A stretch of DNA of 64,000 nucleotides, from contig NC_136005.1 of the NCBI RefSeq assembly GCF_048128805.1, positions 18,998,260 through 19,062,259 of the forward strand, read 5' to 3'. This DNA comes from Centroberyx gerrardi (lineage: Eukaryota > Chordata > Actinopteri > Beryciformes > Berycidae). Shown here piece by piece: positions 60,187 through 63,100 of the stretch (the stretch's first letter is position 1; each line of letters starts with the position of its first letter). Made by a program: the position numbers and the translations under genes. The notes below the pieces were generated by a model, which worked only from the letters and a program-made list of their open reading frames with translations, searched no databases and had not been told where the DNA came from.

Positions 60187-63100
60187 TCAGTTTCCGTTGA
60201 GCTCCACGGGGCCTTTGGGTATGAGCAGGCTCATCCGGCCCGCAGTGCTGGCTGCACTCTTGATCACCTCCATCCATCTGCAAAGAGGGGACAGCATGCA
60301 GTGTCAGATAGACAGTCACGGGTTTAAAACACTGCACCATTACTACACGACCTCCAGTCTGACCTGGGAAAAGAAGCGTGGAAGAACGCTGTGGAAATGG
60401 TTGGAATACCATAGATAAGCAGTGCATTTTTTTTACGTACCTCTCAAAAGTGTACTCGCTCTCTGCCCGGAAAAAGTAAACATGGGACTTGAATTGCAGC
60501 TTGAAGACGTACTCCTTGTGAATGCTGTCAGACTCCTCTGGTGTGCTGACTGTGTAGCCGAGCAGTGGGAGGCTGGCCAACGGGAAGTCATCCTGGAAAG
60601 ACAGATGGGAGGACTTAACAAAGTCACTTCTGAATACACATTCTGAATAGATATAGATTTTTTGCTCTAAAAGAAATGATAAACACAAGGGATCAGACTG
60701 GGGATCTCAGGATCAGGTGGCTACCTGGTGAGTCTTGTAGAAGAACAAGCAGAAGTTGGTGAAAACAACCCAGAGCTTCTGCCAGCCGTTACTGTTCTTG
60801 AACTTCCTAAGGAGGTATCCTGAGAGCTGGTTCTAGAGGAAAAGGATGGAGCAGAAAGTTTAGAAGAAAAAAAATTAAATGTTTAGAAATTATAATGAAA
60901 TTTAACAGTGATTTGTGGCTGTGTGTAAGTGGCTGGTTGTGATATCCTTCATTAATTACTTAGGTTTGTTGTGCGTTTCTTGCGGGATGATTCGTTTTTC
61001 TATCCATCTAAAAAGCCCATGATCTGTGGATGCCAACCCACAAGTTTTCTACTGAGGCTGCAGGGAGAGAGTGCAATCGTCGGACCTCTCCTTGTAATCT
61101 ATCTATCTATCTATCTATGCCGTGGCTCTGGTACCTGGTTCATGCGCAGGTAATCAGTGAGAGAGAGGTTCTGGTTTCGGTACCAGCAAACATGTGTGAT
61201 GGTGTTGGGTCTTTGGCCCTGACCGAGGAGATAGCGAGGAGGAAGCTCCGGTGAAACAGCTGGAGAGCAGAAGACTGAGAGGGTGAAGAGACAAGAGATG
61301 GAAAGGGTGTAGAGAGAGAGAGAGAGAGAGAGACGGGGCAGGAGGAAAACGATGTGTTAGCATGTTAGCATTCAGTGGCAGAAGGGGGAAAGAAAGTTCA
61401 GTGGCAGAGTGGGGAAGGAAAGACCGGTTAGAAAGTGCTCCAGGTCTGTGGAGTGAGACTGTTAGTGTCAGAGAATGGTTCTTGCATGGGCATCATTAAC
61501 ATGCTTTTGATAACATACATTTTCAAGAACAAAAGAAGAGGAACCAAAGAGGAAAGGAGCATTAGAACCGTATAGAAAAGTCTTTAGTTAAACAGTAGAG
61601 ACAAAACATTATCAGACATTAGGGAGAGATGAGGGAAGAAAGGTTAAAGTAAAATGAAGAGGGTGAGGGTAAGGAAATGAAACTCCACCATGGACCCTAG
61701 AGACATCCTTTCCATCTTTCTTTTCCATCACCGCTGACCAACGACGCTTACATGTGTTTACGCGAAGATGTGTCTATAACTGGCAAATCTCTCATGGTCT
61801 GTGTGCGTTTGCATCAAAGTGTGTGGGTGTGCATGAGGGTGTGTATGTGTGTCTTAATGCGGGCAGAGGAGGAGTACCTCCACAGCCAGGCTGTGATCAG
61901 ACATAGACACGCTGGTGTTGCGGTGCCAGCACACATGCATAGTTGTGTTGGCACGGTGGTGCGTCTGCTTATCCAGTGAAGTGCGGGACGAGTGCATGTC
62001 ATCCTCCGACTCCTGCTCCAGAGAAACCTCATCAGACGAGCCTGAGGAAGGAGGGAGGAAGTAGGGAGGAGGGAAAGAAGTTGCATGGAGGAAAGGGATA
62101 AACTGTAGATCTGGGTGGATGGTACGTCCCGAGGAAACAGTTTGTTCAAGCAATTTCTTGTAAGACTGAGGAAAGTATAACATGGCTAGATAATAATGTA
62201 GAAAACATGTTCTTTGACTCACACGGTATGCAGAGTAAACAGGTAGTTACATCTCAAACAATACTGAGGTCAATATAAGCTCTTACGGTTGGAGCGATCG
62301 CCTAGTCCAGTGTCAAGGAAGATGTTGGATTTCTCTTGAGACTTCTTGGCCATTTCAATAGCCATGTTCAAATCTTCAATCCACTTGCCCATCTCCACTT
62401 TAGAGCTGCAATCACAAATGAACATTAAAATTAAAACGGTCCAATAGTGCACCGAGTTAAAGAAGACGGTGAGAAGTTCTGTGTGCATCTATCGGTGCTC
62501 ACCTGGCAGCCACTACAATGGTCCTTTGAGCAGAGTAGATGGTGAAGCAGTGGGGGACTGACCACTCATTTTCACTTTCCTCAACCTACAGACAAAGTGC
62601 AGAGAAATACACAGTCAGAGGACAAAGTTGCAACATTGTAATGGTTATCAAAATAACACAGGCAGCCCCTCTTATCATACCAAAACCTCTTGGAATAGTT
62701 TAAGGTTATGGATTGAATAAGAACAAAAGGGAAACAAGAGGTCAGAAAGTCTGACTCAAGTCACAGAAAGACCTGCTGAAGAGCCTCTATTGGAGCATCT
62801 ATATCTGACAGTAAACCAAGCTGGGTTCATTTCCTTGCATTCACAATCTTACACTCACGCCTCCTATCCTATATTAAGGCCAAAACACACCCACCAGAAT
62901 GCCATCAATACAAGGTTGAAATGCATTGTTGGCCAATGGTCAGGGTCTGTTTGAGGCAGTCTGCCTCATTTGGTTTGCATTGGCAGCCACAGTGGCTACA
63001 GGCTTACATGATGAATCAGCACTGGCAGTCAGCAAAGTTTTGGCAGAGCTAACCAGTTAATGCCATTGCCAACATGACTTTACAAATCTTCCCCTTATGC

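Follow-up and report, generated by a model that had tools for sequence, protein, structure and literature searches.

Two neighbouring, homologous exons of farp2, here called A and B, are likely, as judged from sequence, to descend from an old tandem duplication and to be spliced in a mutually exclusive manner in FARP genes. The pair is present in all three FARP genes found in the genome, farp2 and two farp1 genes, and this shared arrangement gives it the appearance of an old, retained switch. An earlier sequence-only reading of farp2 had proposed that A and B are mutually exclusive exons, and that proposal is supported by the present analysis. Real alternative use of exon B appears highly likely.

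The exon pair in farp2 and its counterparts in farp1

The window is the whole 64-kb stretch of DNA analysed (contig C9, positions 18998260-19062259), and the genome searched was the window's own, of 779 Mb. The conceptual protein containing exon A matched PDB entry 4gzu (FARP2) with an E value of 1.6e-84 and 4h6y (FARP1) with an E value of 2.9e-81, and all other PH proteins scored behind these two. The DH-PH-PH chains of the FARP Rho GEF family were the best matches by far, and the gene was assigned to farp2; the genome size and the two farp1 genes suggest that it comes from a fish.

The exons considered here lie on the minus strand. The constitutive upstream exon (62287..62405) encodes the end of PH1 and the start of the linker, and its peptide aligns to 4gzu and 4h6y; the exon's last base is 62287, where one base remains after the final full codon and the exit is in phase 1 (donor ACC/GTAAGA). 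Exon A (61878..62041, 164 nt, donor GAG/GTACTC) carries the acidic form of the linker, which is also the linker seen in the solved structures of FARP1 and FARP2. Exon B (61135..61259, 125 nt, donor CAG/GTACCA) is the homologous alternative, with a proline/glycine-rich start and with counterparts in both farp1 genes. The constitutive downstream exon (60725..60832) encodes the start of PH2 and is entered in phase 0, position 60832 opening it on a whole codon. The sequence-only reading was accurate on the coordinates and borders of A and B, on their entry in phase 1 and exit in phase 0, and on the 618 nt that separate them; each exon is preceded by AG and followed by GT. In the intron between A and B, about 110-160 nt before B, a 26-nt unit is repeated twice in tandem (88% alike) at window positions 61371-61422. 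A short repeat at 61097-61118, which reads ATCT (GATA when taken on the minus strand), begins 17 nt downstream of the end of exon B.

A and B had also been described as homologous segments with dissimilar N-terminal halves, and both parts of that description hold. An ungapped alignment of the C-terminal 26 residues of A and B has 11 identities and a BLOSUM62 score of 68, which is beyond chance: none of 200,000 shuffles of this core reached 68 (the best reached 40), and in the six frames of the whole 64-kb window the runner-up among stop-free places scored 25. Upstream of the core no convincing alignment was found, A being acidic and B rich in proline and glycine. Scanned for further copies of the exon, the window had no good match beyond A and B. 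In the farp1 loci (L005-L009), the corresponding scan gave nothing above background apart from each gene's own A and B, other places scoring at most 32 with the A query and with stops allowed.

The search of the window's genome identified FARP-type exons on two further contigs, C10 and C21. The A exons there are of FARP1 type, with the VDFS motif that they share with the human FARP1 chain 4h6y. In a six-frame scan of both farp1 stretches, the interval from A to the following exon contained a segment resembling B; its scores against farp2 B were 46 and 49, and the highest-scoring non-FARP places in the same stretches reached 16 and 20. Frame, phases and borders are complete in exon B of C10 (L006 2813-2677, 137 nt) and in exon B of C21 (L005 2939-2812, 128 nt). 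The sequence-only reading had suggested a search of this FARP1 intron for B-type peptides, and in this one genome both farp1 genes have such a peptide there, in the same order and phases. A genome-wide search with farp2 B returned five places, all of which fall inside these three genes; the C21 exon B is absent from them and rests on the local scans only. No relative of the pair was detected among phages, viral contigs and prokaryote contigs, and since those collections hold no vertebrates this result says nothing about conservation.

The either-one-only arithmetic that had been proposed for farp2 was confirmed by spliced translations. The frame is open with A alone and with B alone; inclusion of both runs into a stop close to the 3' end of B, and if both are skipped a stop comes at the ninth codon past the junction. 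Entry in phase 1 and exit in phase 0 apply to A and B in all three FARP genes, and all six exon lengths are 2 mod 3 (164, 164 and 161 nt for A and 125, 137 and 128 nt for B in farp2, C10 and C21, respectively). Double inclusion gives a stop in each of the three genes. Skipping both exons shifts the frame in every case; the following exon then contains a stop in farp2 and C21 and none in C10. Canonical AG and GT dinucleotides border six of six exons, and the strengths of the sites vary. The A exons of all three genes end in GAG/GTAC (window 61878, L006 3641, L005 3368), which scores as a weak donor against a consensus matrix, yet A is the form in the solved structures.

Selection on exon B and the age of the pair

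Exon B was the best DNA match between the two farp1 introns that run from A to the next exon (84 nt, 76%, E 2.7e-13), the match ending 3 nt past the exon. A second match between these introns (E 3.8e-5) lies just upstream of B, in pyrimidine-rich sequence. Comparison of farp2 with farp1 intron DNA gave nothing significant (best E 0.046-0.056), and the farp2-farp1 likeness of B is visible at the protein level only. By Fisher tests whose p values are uncorrected across several tests, and with synonymous change between farp2 and farp1 near saturation, synonymous change exceeded nonsynonymous change over the whole of exon B between farp2 and C10 (p 0.017) and between farp2 and C21 (p 0.011), with p 0.068 for C10-C21; over the last 24 codons the values were 0.13 and 0.10 for farp2 against each farp1 and 0.0135 for C10-C21. 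Constraint on exon A was clearly stronger in the same test, with uncorrected whole-exon p values of 0.0002 to 0.02. When A was compared with B within one gene, the substitution test was significant in none of the three genes. The tests on B are mixed, and the constraint on this exon is weak.

An alternative view takes exon B as the relic of an old duplication, a copy now lost from splicing whose frame and borders have survived by chance. Several of the constraint tests are not significant, as this would predict, and the donor scores of B are low (3.6 in farp2 and 3.0 in C21 with the same matrix), though those of the A exons are as low (2.5-2.9). In simulated drift the chance of an open frame was 0.13-0.38 per copy, varying with distance, and exon B of C21 is open in one other frame as well, so that open frames count for little when taken alone. 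The joint retention of frame, borders and length class in three genes counts for more. The open frame, the AG and GT borders, the entry phase and the 2 mod 3 length have all been kept in each gene, drift would leave the frame open at the rate given above before borders and indels are counted, and synonymous change is in excess over whole exon B between farp2 and farp1. Loss of B from splicing is accordingly regarded as quite improbable. B might instead act as a poison exon, being used mainly together with A so as to bring in a stop and lower the level of FARP, and the stop that follows double inclusion in every gene would suit such a role. A poison exon would need neither an open frame when spliced alone nor a protein related to A, whereas B is in frame alone in all three genes and still encodes a relative of A; a poison function is considered highly improbable. 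Use of B in place of A is the reading preferred here.

The age of the pair was assessed from trees of the exon peptides, in which the three B exons group together with support of 92 for both the whole exon and the core. A single duplication before the split of FARP1 and FARP2 is favoured by the shared position, order and phase of the exons, and is not proven by these sequences. The split itself dates to the early vertebrate genome duplications. Independent duplications of A in farp2 and in farp1, by which B would have arisen twice, would account for farp2 B scoring 68 against A but 46 and 49 against its farp1 counterparts, which have diverged more, and in the AU test the separate-duplications tree was not rejected at 0.05 (p 0.053 for the whole exon and 0.133 for the core). 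Against two origins stand the same intron, order and phases in every gene and the grouping of the B exons, and such a history is judged unlikely.

Proposed choice between exons A and B

In the proposed mechanism, one of the two copies would be chosen in each transcript, and transcripts that contain both A and B would be removed by nonsense-mediated decay because of their premature stop. Simple steric exclusion between A and B was considered and set aside, as the A-B gaps of 618 nt (farp2), 827 nt (C10) and 428 nt (C21) are too long for it; a far-distant branch point may still act. Because gaps of 428-827 nt make steric exclusion unlikely, a trans-acting repressor would be the likeliest chooser.

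The repressor may be a PTB-type protein that acts on a pyrimidine-rich tract upstream of B. PTB proteins use pyrimidine-rich tracts with CU motifs of this kind. In farp2 the candidate regulatory tract occupies the 150 nt directly upstream of B on the minus strand (61260..61409), is 79% C+T and contains a CT repeat. All three genes have CU-type motifs and a high pyrimidine fraction (0.79, 0.80 and 0.79) in the 150 nt that precede B; 0.17% of the 150-mers in the window reach a content of at least 0.78. Among the other nine exons only the downstream exon of C21 comes near, at 0.75, so the tract is not unique to B. As stated in an extract of PMC1431707, the distant-branch-point exons that have been studied experimentally are all PTB-regulated. 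Control of the choice by a PTB-type protein is put forward tentatively from these sequences, as a lead and not as a result.

Two other features were tried as general explanations and rejected. One was the absence of AG over a long distance before B, which could mark a distant branch point: the AG-free zone measures 107 and 176 nt in the farp1 genes and only 13 nt in farp2. A shared RBFOX-type site, TGCATG, lies inside exon A of farp2 (window position 61939), occurs twice in C10, in two introns around B, and is found nowhere in the C21 interval. The exon that follows B in C21 (upstream of L005 2108) is preceded by 153 nt that are free of AG and 75% pyrimidine, unlike its counterparts.

The proposed linker swap and its relation to known systems

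The sequence-only reading had assigned to the swapped segment both the linker and the opening strand of PH2. The assignment to the PH1-PH2 linker stands, and by the Pfam border the first strand of PH2 is not included. The Pfam PH match for PH2 starts in the next exon, at residue 97 of the A form and residue 84 of the B form, and the pair therefore swaps the PH1-PH2 linker. The A form, with its neighbouring exons, matches the DH-PH-PH structures of FARP1 and FARP2 (4h6y and 4gzu) over almost the whole stretch. Both of these chains have an A-type linker, and with B the overall match holds but the linker aligns poorly.

Two well-ordered interdomain linkers reportedly help to hold the autoinhibited shape of these proteins, a finding that is ascribed to He et al. 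in 2013. The available part of PMC6041286 describes the DH-PH-PH regions of FARP1 and FARP2 as autoinhibited in crystals, with PH2 and other elements blocking the GTPase site; it describes the release of this autoinhibition as unclear and calls the two proteins possible pseudo-GEFs. From an autoinhibited DH-PH-PH whose shape is held partly by its linkers, we infer that use of B would alter the strength of autoinhibition. The swap would replace the PH1-PH2 linker, acidic in the A form, and so change the tightness of the autoinhibited DH-PH-PH. That the linker swap affects autoinhibition and tunes the release of GEF activity is a suggestion with a little under an even chance of being right. More speculative is the fuller proposal, in which an exclusive pair older than the separation of FARP1 and FARP2, and retained in three FARP genes, gives two forms of the same Rho GEF, one released more readily and the other held in tighter autoinhibition, with the choice made by cell type.

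Homologous mutually exclusive exons are known in FGFR (IIIb/IIIc), tropomyosin, alpha-actinin, dynamin and U2AF1. The FARP pair resembles them in that neighbouring homologous exons have the same phases, are used one at a time by frame arithmetic and are found in several paralogues of a family. It differs in what is exchanged, a linker between domains of a Rho GEF, and in that the pair is known from sequence alone. FARP is unnamed in the main text, as far as available, of PMC9741552, PMC5740500, PMC4465641, PMC5703972, PMC7954323 and PMC1431707, which concern such exons or distant branch points and whose gene lists sit in supplements. Full-text literature searches found no report of an A/B exon pair in FARP. 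According to a secondary report (PMC11876696, seen in extract), exon 20 of human FARP1 is alternatively spliced, and this is linked to rs677031 and to the transcript FARP1-011. That case is similar in being a reported alternative exon of the same gene family, but as given in the extract it is one alternatively spliced exon and not a homologous pair, and it may or may not coincide with A or B. The kind of event is already known; the FARP pair would be new unless genome annotation lists B, and human FARP1 exon 20 may speak against its novelty.

The pair would have been missed because the proteins that were crystallised, and those commonly cloned, carry only A. If the arrangement is as proposed here, a Rho GEF family would join the few in which paralogues are known to share an ancient pair of homologous exons. 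If the linker has two spliced forms, the crystallised form would be half the story, and the B form would be directly testable.
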